From Ferrimicrobium acidiphilum DSM 19497 (GTDB lineage: Bacteria; Actinomycetota; Acidimicrobiia; Acidimicrobiales; Acidimicrobiaceae), in contig NZ_JXUW01000005.1 of assembly GCF_000949255.1 (NCBI RefSeq), positions 1 through 64,000 on the forward strand: a stretch of 64,000 bases of DNA, read 5' to 3'. Below, piece after piece: positions 20,462 to 33,474 of this stretch (position 1 is the first letter of the stretch; every line of letters starts with the position of its first letter). Under the pieces are notes generated by a model. That model did no database searches and was not told where the DNA came from. It saw only the letters and a list, made by a program, of their open reading frames with translations. A program made the translations under genes and the position numbers.

Positions 20462-21814
20462 CCTCGTCCGTGAGGGCGGGGATGGATAGGCGCATACTGA
20501 GCTGGATATCTCCACATCAGTCAAAACTGTCAGACCCTCAAGCGATAATATAAGTATGAGTATTCGTGAGCGCCTGTACCCAGGAGAACAGGAACTACCT
20601 GTTCTTGCGCGTCACTCGCTATGTATGGAATATCGCTCTCGAACAGCGCAATTTGCGGAGACGCGAGCGATTACAAAAGATCACCTACAACACCCAAGCT
20701 CACGAACTCTCCGAAGCTCGCAAGGAAAGCTGGCTCAAGGAAGGTTCTGCCGCAGTCCAACAACAGGCTCTTCGAGACCTAAACCAAGCGTTTCAAAACT
20801 GGTGTAACAGACCAGACCACTTTGGACGTCCGACTTGGCACAAGGCTGGCATCAATGAAGGCTTTGCTGTACGAGATCTGTCTGTTAGACGCATTAACCG
20901 TAAATGGGGTCAGGTATTCGTCCCTAAGTGCGGGTGGGTCAAATTTCGCGTCACTCGTGAATGGAGTGACATAGAAACAGCATCGTCTGCCAGAGTCACT
21001 CTAGATCGTTCTGGCAGATGGTTCGTTAGTTTCACACGTCTAGCTCCACAGATGGAGCGCAAGTCAACTGGCGCTATTGTCGGTATCGACATGGGTGTCA
21101 CTCATACGGTGGCTACGTCTAACGGTGAGTTTCTCGATATGCCAGAACTTCTCACCAAAGGAGAGCATCAACGCAAGAGACGCTTACAGAGGAGGCTCGC
21201 CAGGCAAGTCAAAGGCTCCAACCGCTACAAGGCAACCAAGCTAGCCATAGCTAAGCTCGCAGCCAAAGAAGTAGACCGACGTAAAGACTGGATCGAGTGG
21301 ACCACAACCGATCTGGTGCGCGACTATGACTTGATCTCACTAGAGACACTAAAGATTAAAAACATGACCAAGTCAGCCAAAGGAACCAAAGACAAGCCTG
21401 GCAAGAACGTTAAGGCAAAGTCCGGACTTAACAGGTCAATTCTCGAACAGGGCTGGGGCTTGTTCTGCCAACGGCTTACTGACAAGGCTACCAATGCTGT
21501 AACACCAGTAGAAATCATCGCTATCAATCCCGCATACACGAGCCTGCATTGTTCTGAGTGTGGTTACACGGACAAGAAGAATCGCGATAGTCAAGCTCGC
21601 TTCCACTGTCTATCGCGTGGCTATACGGATAACGCAGACGTGAATGCGGCCAAGAATATCATTGCCGCAGGGCTTGTGGTCCAAGAGCGTGGAGGACAAT
21701 CGCACATTGTGTCTACCAAGACACAACACAGCGACCCAGCGAAGCGCACCACCACTCCTAAAGCTGCGTAAGCAGCTTGGGAAGCCCCGTCTGTAAGGTC
21801 GGGGAGGATGTCAC
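20462..21814 (+). mobile_element. IS605-type element with tnpB only, copy 2
   Basis: The left-end hairpin is CCTCGTCCGTGAGGGCGGGGA (20462-20482). The right-end hairpin is CCCCGTCTGTAAGGTCGGGG (21785-21804), followed by AGGATGTCAC ending at 21814. Ends and coding sequence resemble copy 1 (11919-13253) in the opposite orientation. No tnpA. Confidence 0.65.
20556..21771 (+). pseudogene. tnpB: TnpB RNA-guided nuclease, N-terminal frameshift, copy 2
   Basis: Second copy of the IS605-group tnpB. The true start is ATG 20556 (MSIRERLYPGEQELPVLARH). Compared with copy 1 an 11-bp segment (TGCTCAGATGC) is missing at about 20612, so the frame shifts and the rest, from YVWNIALEQRN on, is read in another frame that stays open to 21771. 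RuvC-I (VGIDMGVTHTVA), RuvC-II (LISLETLKIKNM) and RuvC-III (DNADVNAAKNIIA) are present in this part. In the zinc ribbon the first pair is intact (CSECG), but the second reads CLSRG, so one zinc-binding Cys is lost. A GTG at 20566 in the main frame could give a product with an abnormal N-terminus. Likely inactive. Confidence 0.85.
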
Positions 21815-21952: not shown

Positions 21953-22879
21953 TCAGCAATGGATCATGTGATGGAGAATGATGAGTTGGGCGATCGCGAG
22001 GGGGGCTGAACGTTCGGTGGAGCTGATCCGCCCGAGGCTCGCCGGTATATCGCCACCGAGGCCGATCTTCTCCCACAGCTTCTCTTCGACCAACCTGCTA
22101 GCGGCTTCGGGTGCATGACCGTGGATGTGGAGAGCGTCAACGGGCTTGCCATCCTGGTCCCTGATCAGTTTGATATGTGCAGCATCGCGTGTAGCTGGTG
22201 TCAAGATGTCGTGGAGATCGGGTTGTGGGACGGTCGGACGTAGCAGGATCGTCGCGCTCAGGGAGCTACGGCCCTCGACCGGGGCGAAGGAGATGACCAG
22301 ATCGGCATGAGCGCGCTGCGGACGGATATACTTCTCGGACTCGGGTTCGCGTTGTTCCAGGTCGCTTAACACCTGCTCCGTCGTGTATCCACGTTTTGTG
22401 GTGTCGCGAGCGATTTTCCAAGCCCTACGGACGGTCTCGGGTGGATCGAGGTAGGCGGTGACGTCGAAGGTGGCACGTGAGAGCTTCGACCAAAGTGGGA
22501 ACAGCCCCTCGACGATCACAATTTCACTGGGTATGAAGAGCTCTGGGCGACCGAGCGTTCCGTCGGCATGGTGATACTTCGGCTTCAGGATAGGTTGTCC
22601 GAGGATGAGGAGCTGAAGGTGCTGCTCCATGATTTCAAGATAGTTACACTCTGGATTCAGCGGCGTGAACGGAAGGTTCTTGCGCTCTTTCCGGTCGTAG
22701 CGGTGGTAGTCGTCGGTGCAAAATGACGAGATACGATGCGTGCCGATTGCCTCTACCAGTCCCTTGGTGAGGGTAGTCTTGCCCGACGCAGAATCTCCGG
22801 CGATCGCGAACATTGCAACTCGTTCAGGGTGGGGCTCAGTGGCGGTGAGCTTCTGGATGGCTGCTATTCGGTGGGGCAT
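21953..22879 (-). CDS. prk: phosphoribulokinase
   Basis: Phosphorylates ribulose 5-phosphate with ATP to ribulose 1,5-bisphosphate, the CO2 acceptor of RuBisCO. The P-loop GDSASGKTTLTKG begins at residue 28. FCTDDYHRYDRKER supplies the catalytic Asp and substrate-binding His/Arg. PKYHHADGTLGRPEL and IVEGLFPLW follow the order seen in the plant/cyanobacterial class of the enzyme. Proteobacterial CbbP has DAFHRYDR and a long distinct middle not seen here. AAGGAG lies 6 bp before ATG 22879. It lies 66 bp after the transketolase-GlpX fusion on the same strand, so all three activities are probably co-transcribed. Confidence 0.9.
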   Translation of the reverse strand: MPHRIAAIQKLTATEPHPERVAMFAIAGDSASGKTTLTKGLVEAIGTHRISSFCTDDYHRYDRKERKNLPFTPLNPECNYLEIMEQHLQLLILGQPILKPKYHHADGTLGRPELFIPSEIVIVEGLFPLWSKLSRATFDVTAYLDPPETVRRAWKIARDTTKRGYTTEQVLSDLEQREPESEKYIRPQRAHADLVISFAPVEGRSSLSATILLRPTVPQPDLHDILTPATRDAAHIKLIRDQDGKPVDALHIHGHAPEAASRLVEEKLWEKIGLGGDIPASLGRISSTERSAPLAIAQLIILHHMIHC

Positions 22880-22945
22880 CGGTTCTCCTTTGTCGTGTTA
22901 GCGGTAGTCGATCGTACTGTCAAAGGGTCCGCAGACCGTCGGAGC

Positions 22946-25822
22946 TTATGGAACCAGACGGCGGACGACGCCATAGCGTCCCTCTTGGATCCAAAGACTC
23001 TCGAGTTCACTGAACTCGCCCACGGTTCGGGGCGGTCCCAGGGGATTTGCGCCGGTTATCGAGGTCGCAACCACGATGGAGCTTGGGTGTGCTAAATCGC
23101 TAGCGTCGAAGCAGCGCGTCGCATAATCAGGGTAATCCGCGGCGACGAGTGCAGCTTCTGTGTCACTCTGCGGTGCACACCTCGCCAGCATCTGACCTGA
23201 GAGTGCAAGCGTTGCGGCGGCGGAGATCACGCCCTCAGGAGTGCCTCCGATGCCCCAAAGCATGACAGTAGCGGGATCCCCCTTAAGAACGCGCAAACTT
23301 GCCATCACATCGCCGTCAGGTATCTCGATCACCGGCACTCCATGCGCCCGCAAGTCCGCGATCACCGCGGCGTGTCGTGGCTTGGCTAGGATAACGACAC
23401 TAGTTTCACCAACACCCAATCCAAGCCGACTGGCTACGCGTTTGATGTTCTCAAGGAGTGGCCGATTCAGGTCAATGACCCCGGCGGCACGCTCACCGAC
23501 GATCAGTTTCTCGAGGTAGTAGCCCGGAAGGCTTCGAAATCCTCCCGATTGAGCAGCGGCGATCACCGAGATTGCCCCCTCCCGGCCACTGGCGGCGAAG
23601 TTCGTCCCTTCTAGCGGGTCTACAGCGAGATCGATGTCAATGGTGCCGGTACCAAGGCGTTCACCAACATAGAGCATGGGGGCATGATCCTTTTCTCCCT
23701 CGCCGACGATCACGGTGGCCGATACCGGCAGGCGACTGAGTTCGGCTCGCATCGCGGTGACCGCCGCTTGATCAGCGCGATCTTTGTCACCGAGTCCAAC
23801 TTCGTCAAGTGCTGCGCAGGCGGCTGCCTCGGTCGCCCGGAGTAAATCGGACACCAGGTGAGACGGATGTCCAAGCCTATAGGAGTCCACGACAAGGTCA
23901 AGGGCGGCATCTGCTACTTTTTCGGCGGTGAAGCCGAAATGGGCGGCAACATCGTCAACTGGAGCAGAGGTGCCAAAATGATCTACACCATAGAGGCGAT
24001 CCCCAGGACTGAGAAAGGCGTGCCACCCGGTTCCGACTGAGGCCTCCACCACGAGGCGCGGGACTCCCGTGGGGGCAAGGGCATCTCGCTCTCTCGGCTC
24101 AATGGCAAGGAAGCGCTCACGCCATGGCACCGAAATGACTCTGGCCCAGACATCATCCTCTTCCTTCAAGATCTTGGCCACCTCGATCGCGAGCGCTACC
24201 TCCGATCCTGATGCGAGAAGGATGATCTCAGGGCTTGAGGGCGTATCGTAGACCACGCGCGCACCGATATCGGTGAGCCAGGTTGGCGACGGCGTTGGGG
24301 GCAGCTGTGGCAACGGTTGACGAGTAAGTGCCAGAATCGTTGGACGAGAGCGATCGCTGAGGGCGAGTTCCCAGCTCGCATAGGTTTCGAAGGCGTCAGC
24401 GGGCCGCAGGACATTCGTATTTGGGATGATCCGAAGTGCCTCGAGCTGCTCGATAGGTTGGTGCGTTGGACCATCCTCTCCCACCGCAAAGGAGTCGTGG
24501 GAGAATAGATAGATGACGCCAAGGCCCATGATGGCACTCAACCGAAGGGCTGGTCGGAGGTAGTCAGAAAAGACGAGGAAAGTCGAGACGTAGGGGGTGT
24601 AACCAGAGAGGGCGAGTCCGTTGGCGATCGCGGCCATTGCGTGTTCACGAATGCCGAAATGGATCGTTGACCCGGTGAAGTCGTTGGGTGCGAGCGCCTT
24701 GAGGCCTACGTTTAGACCGGTTGATTCGGCTAGGTCAGCCGAGCCACCGATGAGAGCCGTACTCTGAGCTGCCTGGTGAGCAAGGAACGTCGCCGATGCT
24801 GCGCGCGTCGCCACTGGTGAGGTAGGTAGCTCCAAAGTTGACCTACGGTTGCCGTGAACGAGGGGCGGGGATGGCGGATCGAACCGCGCGCCATAGGTTT
24901 GAGTCCACGTCTTGTGCGACTCTTGCTTGGCCACGATCTGCTCAGCCAGATAGGATCTGACATCCTCGGGAACAAGGAACGCGGGCTCGACAGGCCAACC
25001 GTAGGCGGCCTTGGTAGCAGTGATCTCCTCCGCTCCGAGCGGGGCCCCATGGGCCTTGGAGGTGTTCTGCTTCGTTGGAGCACCGCGCCCGATGATCGTG
25101 GGTGCGATGACGAGGCTCGGACGATCGTGATCGGCAATGGCTTCGCGGTATGCTCGCTCGATTTCGTCGACGTCTTCGGTGTCCGCAATGGTAATGACCT
25201 GCCAGCCATAACTCGTGAAGCGGGCGACGGGATCATCGGTGCAGGATTGGTGACGCGGTCCATCGATGGTGATGTCGTTGGAGTCGTAGGTTACGATAAG
25301 CCGGTCGAGGTGCAGATGGCCCGCGAGCGACGCGGCCTCGTGGCTGATCCCCTCCATGAGGTCCCCGTCTGAGGCGAGGACATATGTGTGGTGATCGATC
25401 GCCCCATGGCTGTTCTCACGCATCTTTGCTTCACCGATTGCCATGCCGACGGCGGTTGCAACACCCTGGCCAAGAGGGCCCGTGGTGGTCTCGACGCCCG
25501 GAGTGAGACCATACTCGGGATGCCCTGGGGTCCTTGACCCCAGTTGGCGAAAGCGCGCGAGCTCTGTGATTCCGACGTCGTAGCCGAAGAGGTGCATTAG
25601 AGCGTAGAGCAGGGCTGACCCGTGGCCAGCGGAGAGTATGAACCGATCGCGGTTCGGCCAGGTTGGGTCCTTGGGGTCAAAGTTCAAAATACGTGAGAAC
25701 AGCGTGTAGCCGATCGGAGCGAGTCCAAGCGGTAGTCCGGGGTGCCCAGAGCGAGCCGCCTCGACCTGATCGATGGAGAGCATGCGGACGGTGGTGATAC
25801 ATCGTTGATCAAGAGAGTTCAT
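22946..25822 (-). CDS. transketolase-fructose bisphosphatase (GlpX class II) fusion protein
   Basis: One continuous frame of 958 residues joins two Calvin-cycle enzymes. Residues 1 to about 655 are transketolase: RMLSIDQVEAARSGHPGLPL, LSAGHGSALLYALMHLFG, TTGPLGQGVATAVGMAI (thiamine diphosphate site), GDLMEGISHEAASLAGH, the pyrimidine-domain GIREHAMAAIANG and FSHDSFAVGEDGPTHQPIE. Residues about 660-958 are class II fructose-1,6-bisphosphatase: VIVGEGEKDHAPML, DLAVDPLEGTN, LEKLIVGERAAGVIDLN, IPDGDVMASL and WGIGGTPEGVI. The start is ATG 25822, with AAGGAG upstream; the longer frame from 25930 has no such site. The bisphosphatase makes fructose 6-phosphate, a substrate of transketolase, so the fusion links consecutive steps. 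Class II enzymes often also take sedoheptulose bisphosphate. Both halves keep their key motifs. Confidence 0.93.
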   Translation of the reverse strand: MNSLDQRCITTVRMLSIDQVEAARSGHPGLPLGLAPIGYTLFSRILNFDPKDPTWPNRDRFILSAGHGSALLYALMHLFGYDVGITELARFRQLGSRTPGHPEYGLTPGVETTTGPLGQGVATAVGMAIGEAKMRENSHGAIDHHTYVLASDGDLMEGISHEAASLAGHLHLDRLIVTYDSNDITIDGPRHQSCTDDPVARFTSYGWQVITIADTEDVDEIERAYREAIADHDRPSLVIAPTIIGRGAPTKQNTSKAHGAPLGAEEITATKAAYGWPVEPAFLVPEDVRSYLAEQIVAKQESHKTWTQTYGARFDPPSPPLVHGNRRSTLELPTSPVATRAASATFLAHQAAQSTALIGGSADLAESTGLNVGLKALAPNDFTGSTIHFGIREHAMAAIANGLALSGYTPYVSTFLVFSDYLRPALRLSAIMGLGVIYLFSHDSFAVGEDGPTHQPIEQLEALRIIPNTNVLRPADAFETYASWELALSDRSRPTILALTRQPLPQLPPTPSPTWLTDIGARVVYDTPSSPEIILLASGSEVALAIEVAKILKEEDDVWARVISVPWRERFLAIEPRERDALAPTGVPRLVVEASVGTGWHAFLSPGDRLYGVDHFGTSAPVDDVAAHFGFTAEKVADAALDLVVDSYRLGHPSHLVSDLLRATEAAACAALDEVGLGDKDRADQAAVTAMRAELSRLPVSATVIVGEGEKDHAPMLYVGERLGTGTIDIDLAVDPLEGTNFAASGREGAISVIAAAQSGGFRSLPGYYLEKLIVGERAAGVIDLNRPLLENIKRVASRLGLGVGETSVVILAKPRHAAVIADLRAHGVPVIEIPDGDVMASLRVLKGDPATVMLWGIGGTPEGVISAAATLALSGQMLARCAPQSDTEAALVAADYPDYATRCFDASDLAHPSSIVVATSITGANPLGPPRTVGEFSELESLWIQEGRYGVVRRLVP

Positions 25823-26359
25823 GTGGAGGCTCCTTGGGGTACGCGAACAGATCGTAACATCGTCAGGTTCAGGCTGGTTACCTTGGGATGGTTGTGCTGA
25901 GACAACCGGGCCAGGTAGAGAGTGACGCAAGCGTCAATCGGGCCTTTTGGTTGGGTGGAGATTGCTGGCGATGCAAGGATTCTCGCATCAACGTCCCAGA
26001 CGTTGGTACCTCCAAAACTTCGTCGATTGTGCACGTTGACACCGCTTGATCCAATACCGCCTGCGATACAAAGTTGATCCGACTGCGTTCGGCTTCGGGT
26101 TACGCGAGGCATGGGCGGGTACATTCCTTTCCTTCGCTGATGTCACTCAACCGCGAAAATGCAAAGAGTGCTGTCTTGGATCCGCTTTCATCGTGCACCA
26201 CAACCCCCCTGGATCGCAAACGTCATCCCAACCTAGTGGACGATCTCGAGTCGACTCCTCCCCAACATGGGTGATGGAGAGGGTGAGTTGGGACTATGTT
26301 CCCGGGCTGGACGAAGGTCGCTCGATTGCGCTGCTCACCACGCCTCCTCGTCGCAGCTA
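25823..26359. other. gene-free stretch before the transketolase fusion
   Basis: About 540 bp with no supported gene. It separates the histidine kinase from the transketolase-GlpX/prk unit and should hold the promoter and any operator for that unit on the minus strand. I could not pick out a convincing -35/-10 pair. Confidence 0.5.
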
Positions 26360-27553
26360 TCATGATTCCGTCGACGCACCATCCTCGATGACGGCTGGCG
26401 TGACTGGGACTCGTAGGCGTACTAGGGTCCCCTCCCCAGGGCTCGAAAAGAGCTCTAGATTGCCACCGATGATTCGTGCTCGCTCACGCATACCGCCGAT
26501 CCCGATGGTAGTGGTCGGTGTCGCGAGGTCGAATCCATCTCCTCTGTCCCGAATGACCACCACCAGATCACCACCGATCGTCGCCAGCCGAAGTTCGCAC
26601 CTGGCGGTCCCTGCGTGCTTCCATGCATTGTTGAGAGCCTCTTGAATGATGCGAAGGGTGGCCAACGCTCGTGTGGCTTCGAGCGTGTTGACGAGCATGT
26701 TCGTTCGATCCTCGACCGCGACGGTGAAGTCGGGGTACGAGTTGGCCAAGGTGTCGACGGCCTCGAGAAAGCCGAACTCATCGAGCACCTGTCGCGCTGA
26801 GTCCTGGATGAGGTGGCGCATTGCTTGGGTGCTGGCACGCAGGAGATCGGATGCTACCCGCAGATCTCTCGCCTCGTTCTCGTCGAGGCCTCTGGCCGCC
26901 TTGACGGCTTCAAGCCGATAGTACGCAGCGTGGACCTGTTGGAGAACGCCATCGTGAAGGTCGAGTTGGATGCGGCGGCGCTCCGCCTCCTGGGCGTCAA
27001 TGAGCTGTTGAGCAAACCCCTCTAGGGCTCGTTCATGTGCCGCCAATTTATCGACCAAGATAGCATGGTCGAAGGCACCGGCCAGGAAACTCGCCACTGT
27101 CGTCAAGACCTCCTGGTGGTGATCGAGATCCACGTCGTCGCGTTGCCAATGGACATTGAGGACACCCACCACGGTCCCACTGGGATTGAGCATTGGCACC
27201 GAGATCAACGTGCGAAATCGTTCTCCTTGGAGCTCGGGGAGGTATCTATACCGATGATCACTCCACTTGTCAGGCACAACCGCGACCTGGCCAGTCTGAG
27301 CAACCCAGCCAGCGATTCCGTCACCGAGACCTAGCGAGACACGACGACGATAGGTGTCAAAGGGCGGGGTGGCGCCGACCAATTCTATGCGAGTCGCCTC
27401 GTAGTTGACCAGATGAACAAAGCAGACACTGGCCCCAACGGCCTCAACAACGAGTTGGGCTGATCGAGCAGCCAGTCGATCGAGCTGCAGGCTCTCGGCG
27501 AGCACGCCGGCAAGCTTACGATAGAGTATGAGCTCCTCAGGTTCAAGGATCAT
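26360..27553 (-). CDS. GAF-domain sensor histidine kinase (NarL-type system)
   Basis: Cytosolic sensor kinase with no transmembrane segment. Residues about 20-165 form a GAF domain (SVCFVHLVNYEATRIEL, GDGIAGWVAQTGQ, TLISVPMLNPSGTVVGVLNV). The HisKA_3 dimerisation helix follows with EAERRRIQLDLHDGVLQQVH, whose His is the phosphorylation site. The HATPase domain shows RIIQEALNNAWKHA (N box), VIRDRGDGFD (G1) and GIGGMRERARIIGG (G2). The start overlaps the response regulator stop by 4 bp. Lying inside the Calvin-cycle cluster, it probably senses a soluble ligand or redox state related to CO2 fixation; that is inference, as the GAF ligand cannot be read. Confidence 0.9.
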   Translation of the reverse strand: MILEPEELILYRKLAGVLAESLQLDRLAARSAQLVVEAVGASVCFVHLVNYEATRIELVGATPPFDTYRRRVSLGLGDGIAGWVAQTGQVAVVPDKWSDHRYRYLPELQGERFRTLISVPMLNPSGTVVGVLNVHWQRDDVDLDHHQEVLTTVASFLAGAFDHAILVDKLAAHERALEGFAQQLIDAQEAERRRIQLDLHDGVLQQVHAAYYRLEAVKAARGLDENEARDLRVASDLLRASTQAMRHLIQDSARQVLDEFGFLEAVDTLANSYPDFTVAVEDRTNMLVNTLEATRALATLRIIQEALNNAWKHAGTARCELRLATIGGDLVVVIRDRGDGFDLATPTTTIGIGGMRERARIIGGNLELFSSPGEGTLVRLRVPVTPAVIEDGASTES

Positions 27554-28203
27554 CGGAAGGTGACATCCCTCAACGCGACCGCCACCGCTTCGGCACGGGA
27601 CTTGACCTTGAGTTTTCGGTAGATCGAGGAGAGGTGACTTTTGACAGTCTCTTCACCGAGGAAAAGGTTCTGAGCGATCGACTTCGTCGACATTCCCTTG
27701 ACGATAAGCTCGAGGATCTCACTCTCGCGATGGGTCAACCCGAGATGTGCTCCAGGCCAAAACTCACCGAGCTGTAGCCGTGCGGCGAGCAGCGCGACGC
27801 GACCAGCGATCGATGGGTCGATAGTGATTTCGCCCTCCATCACACGGGTCAAAAGACCTACCAGTTCGGTGCTCGTTGCCTGTTTGAGAATGTAGCCTCT
27901 AGCGCCTCCACGCAGAGCACGGAACAGGTACGCCTCATCATCGTAGGCGGTGTAGAACACGACCGGCGTCTCGATTCCTGCCCCCACGACCTGTTCGAGG
28001 AGTTCAAAACCGGACCCAATCTTGAGACGAGCATCGGTGAGGATAAGATCAGGAGACTGCTCGGCCAAGATCTGCATCGCTTCGGGCACCGTCTTGACGG
28101 CAGCCGACACCTCCACCTCATCAGCATGGCTGCGCAGCATTGCACGCACACCGTCGATGATGACTTCGTGATCATCGACCAATAGGAGCCTGATGATCGA
28201 CAT
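27550..28203 (-). CDS. NarL/LuxR-family response regulator
   Basis: DNA-binding response regulator paired with the overlapping histidine kinase. The receiver domain begins IIRLLLVDDHEVIIDGVRAM with the acidic pair DD; the phospho-acceptor Asp is in PDLILTDARLKIGSG, and VFYTAYDDEAY and GYILKQATSTEL hold the Thr and Lys switch residues. The C-terminal LuxR helix-turn-helix reads GLTHRESEILELIVKGMSTKSIAQ and EETVKSHLSSIYRKLKVKSRAEA. I prefer ATG 28203 (217 residues), which puts the receiver strand directly at the N-terminus; ATG 28227 is possible and neither has a strong ribosome site. Targets may be the nearby Calvin genes. Confidence 0.92.
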   Translation of the reverse strand: MSIIRLLLVDDHEVIIDGVRAMLRSHADEVEVSAAVKTVPEAMQILAEQSPDLILTDARLKIGSGFELLEQVVGAGIETPVVFYTAYDDEAYLFRALRGGARGYILKQATSTELVGLLTRVMEGEITIDPSIAGRVALLAARLQLGEFWPGAHLGLTHRESEILELIVKGMSTKSIAQNLFLGEETVKSHLSSIYRKLKVKSRAEAVAVALRDVTFR

Positions 28204-28499
28204 CAGCGTCGCCTGAGTCCGCGCCATTGCATCGGTATGCCCACTAACACGGATCCTCGCCCGTCGCCTGAGCCCCTTCGTCGGTGTCGCAGAGCCACCA
28301 AGCGAGCTGCCCGTGCTTGAGCCCCGGCGCTAATGACCCGGTTGGACCGTGCGATGTTTGCAATGGATTCCACGATAACCAGACTCTCCCGGTGTGCTAT
28401 GGTGGCCAAAGCTTAGACGCTGGCAAGCGGCACCAGCGCTGCCTGACTGCAGTGGCTGGGATTTGGACATCCTTCTGCCAAACGGCGGTAGACAAACTC

Positions 28500-29522
28500 T
28501 CAAAGCGTGACCAAGTCACGTGGTTCAAGCGCCGCGGCGGTGTCGACTACCCGTGACATCAGGCTTGCCTGAGTAAGTTCGCGGTCCTGACCTGAACTGG
28601 CCCAGACTTTGAGCGGGGTGTCCTGGAGCGCACGGCCGAACGAGAAGGTAAGCGGCCAGGGTAGTGGGTCCATGGCGTGCATCGCAGCCAGGTTTGTGGT
28701 GGCGGCCTCGTCGGATTGACCGCCGGACAGGAGGGCAATTCCCGCCACCGAGGCTGGTACGGTGTCGCGATAGCACGCGATGGTGGCCTGCGCGATCTCC
28801 TCGGGAGTAGCTGCAGGGCCAGCATCTCCAGGCGTGACCATGGAGGGCTTGAGTATCATGCCGGTAAGTGTGACGTCGAAGGAGCGGAGTTGCTCAAAGA
28901 CCGCCGTCAAGACGGTCCGCGTGACCGCTATGTTGGTGTCGAGGTCGTGCGTCCCCTCCATGAGTACCTCTGGTTCGACGATCGGCACGAGCCCGAACTC
29001 TTGACAGAGCCTGGCGTAGCGCGCCAGCGCGTGGGCGTTGCTCGCGATGCAAATCGGGCTTGGTTGGCCGACGTCGATGCGCAGGACGGCGCGCCATTTG
29101 GCAAAACGGGCACCCTTGTCGTAGTAGCGTTCCAAACGGGGCCCAAGGTTATCCAGACCCTCGGTCACGAGTTCGCCATCGGTGCCGGCGAGAGGTTTGG
29201 CGCCGGTGTCAACCTTGATTCCGCATAGGAGCCCCAGGCGGGCCAGGTAGTCAGGGAAGGCCTCATCGGATGTAAAGGTCCTCTGGTTGAAGGTTTCGTC
29301 GTAGAGGATAGCTCCTGAGACGAAGGCAGGCAGTCCGGGCGTGCTGACGAGCGTTTCACGCCAGGCACGCCGCGACTGCTCGTTCGATTCTATTCCGAGC
29401 GCCGTGAAGCGCTTGGTGAGGGTCGGGCTACTTTCATCAGCCGCGAGGATCCCTTTCGGGTGCTCGACCAATGCACGAGCGTTGTCGACGAGTTCATTGA
29501 TGGCGGTCAAGCGGTTGGCCAT
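28500..29522 (-). CDS. fructose-bisphosphate aldolase, class I
   Basis: Condenses glyceraldehyde 3-phosphate and dihydroxyacetone phosphate, or erythrose 4-phosphate for sedoheptulose bisphosphate, in the Calvin cycle; reversible in glycolysis. Class I marks are visible: GILAADESSPTLTKRF, GAILYDETFNQRT, CGIKVDTGAKPLAG, GARFAKWRAVLRI, and the Schiff-base lysine in GMILKPSMV. IALLSGGQSDEAATTNLAAM and LTFSFGRALQ complete the phosphate site. At 340 residues it is a typical length. Class I enzymes are less common in bacteria than metal-dependent class II. It precedes the two-component genes by about 270 bp on the same strand. Confidence 0.95.
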   Translation of the reverse strand: MANRLTAINELVDNARALVEHPKGILAADESSPTLTKRFTALGIESNEQSRRAWRETLVSTPGLPAFVSGAILYDETFNQRTFTSDEAFPDYLARLGLLCGIKVDTGAKPLAGTDGELVTEGLDNLGPRLERYYDKGARFAKWRAVLRIDVGQPSPICIASNAHALARYARLCQEFGLVPIVEPEVLMEGTHDLDTNIAVTRTVLTAVFEQLRSFDVTLTGMILKPSMVTPGDAGPAATPEEIAQATIACYRDTVPASVAGIALLSGGQSDEAATTNLAAMHAMDPLPWPLTFSFGRALQDTPLKVWASSGQDRELTQASLMSRVVDTAAALEPRDLVTL

Positions 29523-29574: not shown

Positions 29575-30507
29575 TTAGTCACCCAAAATGTGGGGTTGTG
29601 GGGTGAAATCAACCTCACCCGAGGCTTGGAGATAGCGTGCCAGGTCGATGATCGCGCTGGTGGGTGGTTCCCCGCTTCTCACCCCGAGACACCAGCTACG
29701 GCGCTGGGGTAGCGGTGGCACATTCAGTGAGACGAGTTCACCGGTCTCCAACTCGTGAGCCACCGACTCGGTGGAGATGACGGCGATGCCTAGGCCGAGC
29801 TCGACGAGGCGCTTCATAGCCAGATTCGATCCGACGGCAAGGGTGGGGGGTGTGATCGCGAGTTCACTAATCAGCTCTTCGGCCGATGCTCGGGTGCCTG
29901 AGCCGGGCTCTCGCACGAGCCAGGTTACGGCTCCCACCTGATCGATGGTCGGCTCGAGTGTCGGCCCAAACCACTGGTGTGCACGGGCTTCGTTCGCGAT
30001 CAAGGCGAGTTCGTGCACTCGGGTTGCGATGACCTCGACGGGTTCGCTTCGTGTCGGTCTGCCTGAGATGACCATGTCGACACGGTGATCGTCGAGGAGT
30101 TGGAACAGAGTGGTCTTGTTGGCGACCTCAAGGCTGACCGTCGCGTGAGGTCGTCCCGCGAGATAGCCCTGAAGCCAACGCGGAAGTAGCTCTTCCCCGA
30201 CGGTCGCTACCGCACCGATGCGAAGAACGAAGGTGTCAGGATCGTTGGCCTCCCGTGTTCGCACAAGGGCCTCCTCCATGACGCCAAGCAGGTTTGAAGC
30301 GTAGACAGCAAGCACTTCGCCGGCTGGAGTGAGTGCCATGCCGCGTCCGACACGTCTCGTGAGGGCTACACCCACCTCGCGAGCCAGGGCGGACATGGTT
30401 GAAGAGACGGCGGCGGATGTAACGAATAGACGTCGACTTGCTGCGCTGATTGACCCGGTTTCAGCCACTGCCAGCAGGGTTTTGAGTTGAGTGGTTGTCA
30501 TGTGCAT
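29575..30507 (-). CDS. cbbR: LysR-family regulator of the cbb genes
   Basis: Transcription factor of the CbbR type, encoded divergently from cbbLSX. The N-terminal helix-turn-helix reads QLKTLLAVAETGSISAASRRLFVTSAAVSSTMSAL with the linker helix after it. The effector domain (about 90-300) includes LRIGAVATVGEELLPRWLQG, FQLLDDHRVDMVISGRPTR, and LVREPGSGTRASAEELI. CbbR proteins sense metabolites such as phosphoenolpyruvate, RuBP or NADPH; the effector here is unknown. There is no clear ribosome site. A TATAGT hexamer 11 bp before ATG 30507 lies within a perfect palindrome, so the transcript may be nearly leaderless and self-regulated. Assignment to cbbR rests on location and family. Confidence 0.88.
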   Translation of the reverse strand: MHMTTTQLKTLLAVAETGSISAASRRLFVTSAAVSSTMSALAREVGVALTRRVGRGMALTPAGEVLAVYASNLLGVMEEALVRTREANDPDTFVLRIGAVATVGEELLPRWLQGYLAGRPHATVSLEVANKTTLFQLLDDHRVDMVISGRPTRSEPVEVIATRVHELALIANEARAHQWFGPTLEPTIDQVGAVTWLVREPGSGTRASAEELISELAITPPTLAVGSNLAMKRLVELGLGIAVISTESVAHELETGELVSLNVPPLPQRRSWCLGVRSGEPPTSAIIDLARYLQASGEVDFTPQPHILGD

Positions 30508-30549: not shown

Positions 30550-32079
<1,530 letters not shown>

Positions 32080-32123: not shown

Positions 32124-32540
32124 ATGCACCTTACTCAAGGTCAATTCTCATTCTTACCACCCTTGACCGATGAGCAAATCATTGCTCAGATCCAATGGGC
32201 GCTTCAACATGATTGGGCAGTAGGGGTGGAGTTCACAGACGACCCGCACCCGCGCAATACCTACTGGGATATGTGGGGTTTGCCGATGTTTGACCTCCGT
32301 GATCCTGCCGCAATCCTCTATGAAGTCAACGAGTGCCGCCGGGCGTACCCGAATCGCTATATCCGGGTTACGGCGTTCGACTCGACGAGAGGTTGGGAGG
32401 CGCCTCGGATGTCCTACCTGGTCCAGCGACCCGAAGATGAGCCGGGCTTTGTTCTCGAGCGTCAGGAGACAGAGGGTCGTCGGGTGGTCTACTCGACGAG
32501 GAGCTACGCGGCAGATAAGCCAGCGGGGACACGCTATTGA
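32124..32540 (+). CDS. cbbS: RuBisCO small subunit
   Basis: Small subunit capping the L8 core in the L8S8 holoenzyme. [39 protein letters not shown] and [20 protein letters not shown] are characteristic. The 138-residue protein has the C-terminal extension of red-type small subunits (about residues 108-138, ending [11 protein letters not shown]), which forms beta hairpins around the solvent channel in form IC and ID enzymes. It follows cbbL by 44 bp; AAAGGA precedes the ATG by about 10 bp. Confidence 0.96.
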
Positions 32541-32598
32541 CACCAATGTTGATGGTTCCGCAGTTGCTGTTTGGCACTGACACGAACGGAGTTTGCGC

Positions 32599-33474
32599 AT
32601 GAGTGATGGCATCGATCTCGGTGCGCTCTATACCGAGACGAAGATCCAAGAGACGCTCGATGAGCTAGACCGGGAGTTGGTCGGGCTCAAGCCAGTCAAG
32701 ACGCGCATACGGGAGATCGCTGCCTTGCTGCTCGTGGATCGAGCGCGTGCACAGCTGGAGCTCATTGGTGGGCAGCCCAGTCTGCACATGAGCTTTACCG
32801 GCAATCCCGGCACCGGCAAGACCACGGTAGCGCTGCGTATGGCCGAACTTCTTGCTCGGCTTGGTTACATTCGACAGGGCCATGTCGTTGCGGTGACACG
32901 AGATGATCTCGTCGGACAATATATCGGCCATACTGCGCCAAAGACGAAGGAGGTCCTCAAGCGCGCGATGGGCGGCGTGCTCTTCATCGATGAAGCCTAC
33001 TATCTCTTCAAGCCGGAGAACGAGCGAGACTATGGCGCCGAGTCGATCGAAATCTTACTCCAAGTCATGGAGAACCAGCGTGATGATCTTGTCGTGATTC
33101 TGGCGGGTTACAAGGATCGCATGGACACCTTCTTCAGTTCGAATCCAGGCATGTCTTCGAGAATCGCCCACCATATCGACTTTCCGGACTACTCCGTACA
33201 GGAGTTACTGGCTATCGCGAAGCTGATGTTGGCTGCATGGCAGTACCAGTTCTCGGATGAGGCGCAGGAGGTCTTTGCACGCTACCTCGAATTGCGCATG
33301 ACCCAGCCGAATTTTGCTAATGCACGCAGTGTTCGCAATGCGTTGGACCGGACGCGCTTGCGTCAGGCGAATCGACTCTTTGAACGAAGAGGTAGGTCGG
33401 TGACCAAAACTGATCTCATGACGATCGAGCCGGAGGACATACTCGCCAGCCGAGTCTTTCAAACTTCTCCGTAA
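32599..33474 (+). CDS. cbbX: red-type RuBisCO activase CbbX
   Basis: AAA+ hexameric motor that pulls the C-terminus of the red-type large subunit to release inhibitory sugar phosphates. The protein shows the Walker [21 protein letters not shown], the pore-loop [14 protein letters not shown] typical of CbbX, Walker [13 protein letters not shown], and the C-terminal arginine-finger region [20 protein letters not shown]. The start is ATG 32599 ([11 protein letters not shown]), with GGAG about 12 bp upstream. It comes 58 bp after cbbS, completing the operon. The length of 291 residues is normal. Confidence 0.97.

Follow-up and report, generated by a model that had tools for sequence, protein, structure and literature searches.

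The 64,000-nucleotide stretch of Ferrimicrobium acidiphilum DSM 19497 DNA analysed here (the window) carries on its minus strand a gene in which a transketolase (tkt) is fused to a class II (GlpX-type) bisphosphatase (glpX; 22946..25822). The gene starts with ATG, encodes 958 aa without internal stops, and ends with a stop codon at 22946–22948. The single uninterrupted frame and the coordinates given in a preliminary description of this DNA are therefore correct; the strand, which it left unstated, is minus. The first listed start is a TTG at 25930, and the ATG at 25822 matches the starts of homologues. Orthologues of the fusion are 48–96% identical to it along the full length.

The transketolase part (residues 1–644, 23891..25822, minus strand) contains the ThDP-binding, pyrimidine and C-terminal domains (PF00456/PF02779/PF22613) in that order: Transketolase_N at 5–310 (E 2.7e-123), Transket_pyr at 336–505 (1.1e-50) and Transketolase_C_1 at 520–632 (4.2e-24). 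The protein also scores above the curated cut-off of the NCBIfam transketolase model TIGR00232. The bisphosphatase part (residues 655–958, 22949..23860, minus strand) matches FBPase_glpX (PF03320) at 656–955 with E 2.4e-90, covering profile positions 3–302 of 307 and thus the full length; with the glpX equivalog model TIGR00330 it scores 257.2 bits, just below the cut-off of 259.3. The junction between the two parts (residues 645–654, 23861..23890, minus strand) was placed with an AlphaFold2 model and the alignment. In the model, the last transketolase helix (633–650) and the first GlpX helix (653–672) are separated by a two-residue break; mean pLDDT is 82.5 and pTM 0.65, a value at which the orientation of the domains is unreliable. 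The best Foldseek matches of the model are transketolases, with no GlpX among the 50 best listed, and the GlpX fold assignment thus rests on sequence.

Both active sites are intact. All 21 of the E. coli TktA positions compared (H26 to R520; ThDP- and substrate-binding residues chosen from general knowledge) have the same residue in the window protein, and 20 have it in all fusions. The active site of E. coli GlpX consists of Asp33, Glu57, Asp85, Glu88, Thr90, Tyr119, Lys164, Arg166, Asp188 and Glu213 (PMC5892879). In the alignment, all ten are identical in the window protein, where they are D684, E708, D735, E738, T740, Y769, K814, R816, D838 and E863. The metal-binding and nucleophile positions of GlpX are invariant in the fusions and in the split forms described below, wherever the sequence is complete; in one sequence, the split form of G402, Glu replaces Asp186. 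With the Pfam domains in order and both sites preserved, the earlier proposal of a full transketolase and a GlpX-type bisphosphatase in one predicted polypeptide holds, and the fusion is a real, conserved joining of two complete enzymes in one frame. Both activities are predicted from the intact sites. Sedoheptulose bisphosphatase (SBPase) activity, which is unreadable from sequence, is suggested only by the Calvin-cycle context. Transketolases are dimers. For GlpX enzymes, a 222 homotetramer is described (PMC5892879). Combining the two would make a large assembly, the formation of which is not trivial.

The fusion lies in a cluster that also contains RuBisCO and phosphoribulokinase. The phosphoribulokinase gene (prk; 21953..22879, minus strand; PF00485, NF005655) begins 66 bp downstream of the fusion, as had been noted, with the gap at 22880–22945, and it follows the fusion in those genomes of the family whose contig covers that place. 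A short distance downstream of prk, on the other strand, is a gene for a TnpB-family RNA-guided nuclease (20566-21771; NF040570). On the other side of the fusion, likewise on the minus strand, are genes for a GAF-domain histidine kinase (26360..27553; Pfam GAF, HisKA_3, HATPase_c) and a NarL/LuxR-type response regulator (27550..28227; Response_reg, GerE), both present in related clusters, followed by a class I fructose-bisphosphate aldolase (28500..29522; PF00274, NF033379) and a LysR-type regulator (29575..30507; PF00126/PF03466), which is CbbR-like by position and divergent from rbcL. On the plus strand are the RuBisCO large subunit (rbcL, 30631..32079; PF00016/PF02788), the small subunit (rbcS, 32124..32540), assigned by its place after rbcL and 52% identity to an annotated Allomeiothermus silvanus small subunit, and the RuBisCO activase CbbX (32593..33474), which scores above the TIGR02880 cut-off. 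The cluster is conserved in the family, with some differences in gene order and orientation from one genus to another.

Among 42 genomes of this Acidimicrobiales family, the fusion can be read across the junction in 28, which span six genera; three have adjacent split genes, ten have neither, and one (G418) is a contig-end case. The fusion is carried by the finished chromosome of Acidimicrobium ferrooxidans (G014), whose genome is a single replicon of 2,158,157 bp (PMC3035218). A genome search found no full transketolase in A. ferrooxidans besides the fusion, so the fused transketolase half must work as one in this species. The ten family genomes without phosphoribulokinase and RuBisCO (nine of genus g6, plus G417) all lack the fusion, and all those with phosphoribulokinase have either the fusion or the split pair; this co-occurrence represents one or a few phylogenetic contrasts, not 42 independent ones. 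Most family genomes also retain a separate canonical GlpX, and a separate transketolase is likewise kept by genus g1 and several others. Thus, the fusion is not in every case the only enzyme for these steps.

Outside the family, searches of 397 genomes sampled from the order and 396 sampled from the phylum yielded no fusion at a threshold of E <= 1e-190, which a fusion at the level of the distant relatives should pass and a very divergent one might not. Beyond Actinomycetota, coverage consisted of a contig scan (best 80 matches) and a plasmid search. Among the best 80 matches listed in the contig scan, only L042 and L043 are fused, and L044 is cut by the contig end. These three apparently correspond to the records G414, G415 and G416.

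The window genome (G000) carries another copy of the fusion on contig C8 (L009:8405-11284), 77% identical to the first. This copy stands alone, with no Calvin-cycle neighbours, and since its surroundings are common to a copy in G409, it is a genuine paralogue. Its neighbours include a ferric-reductase-like gene and an ApbE-like gene. The genome also encodes a stand-alone canonical GlpX (contig C4) and a stand-alone transketolase (contig C2). In the tree, the unfused transketolase of this genus (L011:4068-5954) is at the end of a very long branch (0.96), apart from its fused counterparts.

In phylogenetic trees, the fused transketolases together with their re-split forms are a single clade (support 0.968), as are the fused GlpX domains with theirs (0.987). 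The fused GlpX, which shares about 41% identity with the canonical GlpX found in the same genomes, branches separately from it and is nearest to GlpX of G950, G1042 and G855 and the Calvin-cycle GlpX of A. silvanus; its placement indicates that it belongs to a Calvin-cycle lineage. In G950, an actinobacterium outside the family, genes for the response regulator, histidine kinase, aldolase (fba), transketolase, GlpX and phosphoribulokinase occur together in the same order as at the fusion locus, with an rpe-like sequence upstream of tkt. Here, however, tkt and glpX are separate, and the stop of the former overlaps the start of the latter as ATGA. G1042 has the same cluster minus tkt at that place, and in G855 glpX lies beside rbcLS-cbbX. 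The presence of an unfused, overlapping pair in the same cluster makes fusion of coupled neighbours the likely origin and the simplest route. A single origin is probable, in the common ancestor of those members of the Acidimicrobiales family that have the Calvin cycle.

The three species with adjacent split genes (G399, G402 and G403; loci L144, L146 and L152) all belong to genus g4. In these, tkt stops within the junction and the GlpX start follows 5–13 nt later. In a concatenated tree of PRK, RbcL, RbcS, CbbX, histidine kinase and response regulator, they are placed beside the fused G214 inside the fused g4 (0.999), and the transketolase tree likewise nests them inside fused g4 (0.942). The GlpX tree differs, with the split species on long branches at the base of g4. 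Given the nesting in the cluster-gene and transketolase trees, ancestral separation in these species is judged unlikely. The ratio of dN in GlpX to that in transketolase is 0.32–1.49 for fused forms (253 pairs) and 4.4–5.6 for split forms (three pairs that share one ancestor and so count as one event); dN ratios alone were used, as dS is saturated in many pairs. Part of the high ratio in the split forms is due to slow change in transketolase, in addition to the faster GlpX; the split GlpX of G403 is shorter at its C-terminus. The shift in rate is read as decoupled constraint after separation, not as proof that fusion is beneficial. As three g4 species have a split gene, the fused state can be dispensed with.

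A dual FBPase/SBPase makes two products, each of which transketolase can use as a ketose donor, and the fusion thus ties supplier and consumer together in a 1:1 ratio. We consider the best overall explanation, held with fairly good confidence, to be a bifunctional Calvin-cycle enzyme that arose by a single fusion of coupled genes, with fixed 1:1 supply and co-location of its two activities. In the ancestor, tkt and glpX would have been neighbours with coupled translation before they became joined. The C-terminal GlpX would dephosphorylate fructose 1,6-bisphosphate at C1, and probably sedoheptulose 1,7-bisphosphate too, and the resulting fructose 6-phosphate and sedoheptulose 7-phosphate would then serve the N-terminal transketolase as ketose donors. 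The transketolase would in turn yield pentose phosphates leading to the substrate of the kinase encoded by the next gene. We infer a benefit of the fusion; its main effect is most likely the fixed supply and co-location, with any channelling being modest.

Two alternatives would deny that a working fusion exists. An assembly or frameshift error might have joined two genes, given that the window genome is a 68-contig draft; however, the frame runs through the junction in 28 genomes, including the finished A. ferrooxidans chromosome, and a second fused copy occurs in the same genome. An assembly join, a concern raised in the preliminary description, is thus ruled out and such an error can be dismissed for practical purposes. 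The separate GlpX, and often separate transketolase, in the same genomes would allow one domain of the fusion to be catalytically dead and to serve oligomerisation or regulation. All catalytic residues examined are, however, kept in both domains, and the search of A. ferrooxidans gave no full transketolase apart from the fusion. The dead-domain reading is highly improbable, and was rejected because no active-site loss was found in either domain.

More weight attaches to the reading that the fusion is near-neutral, the stop between two coupled genes having been lost so that two independent enzymes are joined with no gain over the 1:1 supply that already existed. The overlapping unfused pair of G950, the re-splitting in three g4 species, where GlpX starts 5–13 nt past the transketolase stop, and the wide variation in junction length between genera in the alignment all favour this, whereas retention of the fusion in six genera and 28 genomes, the observation of just one re-split clade, and the coupling of rates between the halves only while they are fused argue against it; we regard it as a serious contender that falls somewhat short of an even chance. 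Direct passage of fructose 6-phosphate and sedoheptulose 7-phosphate from the GlpX site to the transketolase site, a possibility raised in the preliminary description, seems unlikely: the products of one domain are the substrates of the other and the modelled junction is very short, but structural evidence for facing active sites is lacking, transketolase needs a second substrate too, and the split species manage without fusion. A bolder form of the bifunctional reading, which we put forward as a doubtful though slightly better prospect, is a natural multienzyme in which a dual-specific GlpX passes both products preferentially to the attached transketolase, perhaps with GlpX tetramers linking transketolase dimers. 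If so, the re-split species would show the outcome of lost coupling.

Each half of the fusion resembles well-known enzymes. The N-terminal half shares the domain order and the ThDP and substrate residues of bacterial transketolases of the TktA type (TIGR00232/PF00456), with about 38–46% identity to solved structures, but the protein continues in frame into the bisphosphatase. The C-terminal half has the active-site residues of class II GlpX (PF03320; E. coli 3D1R, M. tuberculosis 6AYY) and belongs to the same sequence family; it differs in being tied to transketolase and in having a shorter C-terminus than E. coli GlpX. The closest plasmid match to the fused GlpX is the Calvin-cycle GlpX of A. 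silvanus pMESIL01 (52% identity over 77%). The pMESIL01 cluster, like that of the fusion, contains rbcLS, cbbX, prk, fba and tkt, but the genes are separate and tkt is not adjacent to glpX. In Bacillus methanolicus pBM19, the same enzyme set (glpX-fba-tkt) is clustered for a ketose-phosphate cycle; in contrast to the fusion, its genes are separate and belong to a methanol cycle, with no RuBisCO.

While the enzymes themselves are known, the tkt–GlpX domain architecture is new: no description of a transketolase–GlpX fusion was found in a literature search with sparse coverage of subscription journals. The novelty inferred earlier stands to this extent, but the fusion is not unique to the window genome, being present in 28 of the 42 family genomes and in a second copy. 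The A. ferrooxidans sequence has been public since 2009 (PMC3035218), and protein databases therefore probably list the architecture without comment. In these iron-oxidising, acid-loving bacteria, two enzymes from the regenerative phase of the Calvin cycle are naturally fused, and as the unfused coupled pair, the fusion and the re-split form all occur in living relatives, what enzyme fusion gains in carbon fixation can be tested directly. The gene could also be used as it stands in synthetic CO2-fixing pathways.

The histidine kinase and NarL-type regulator genes (26360-28227) are conserved in the Calvin clusters of the family, G950 and G1042. This pair is a candidate two-component system controlling carbon fixation, in addition to the LysR regulator.
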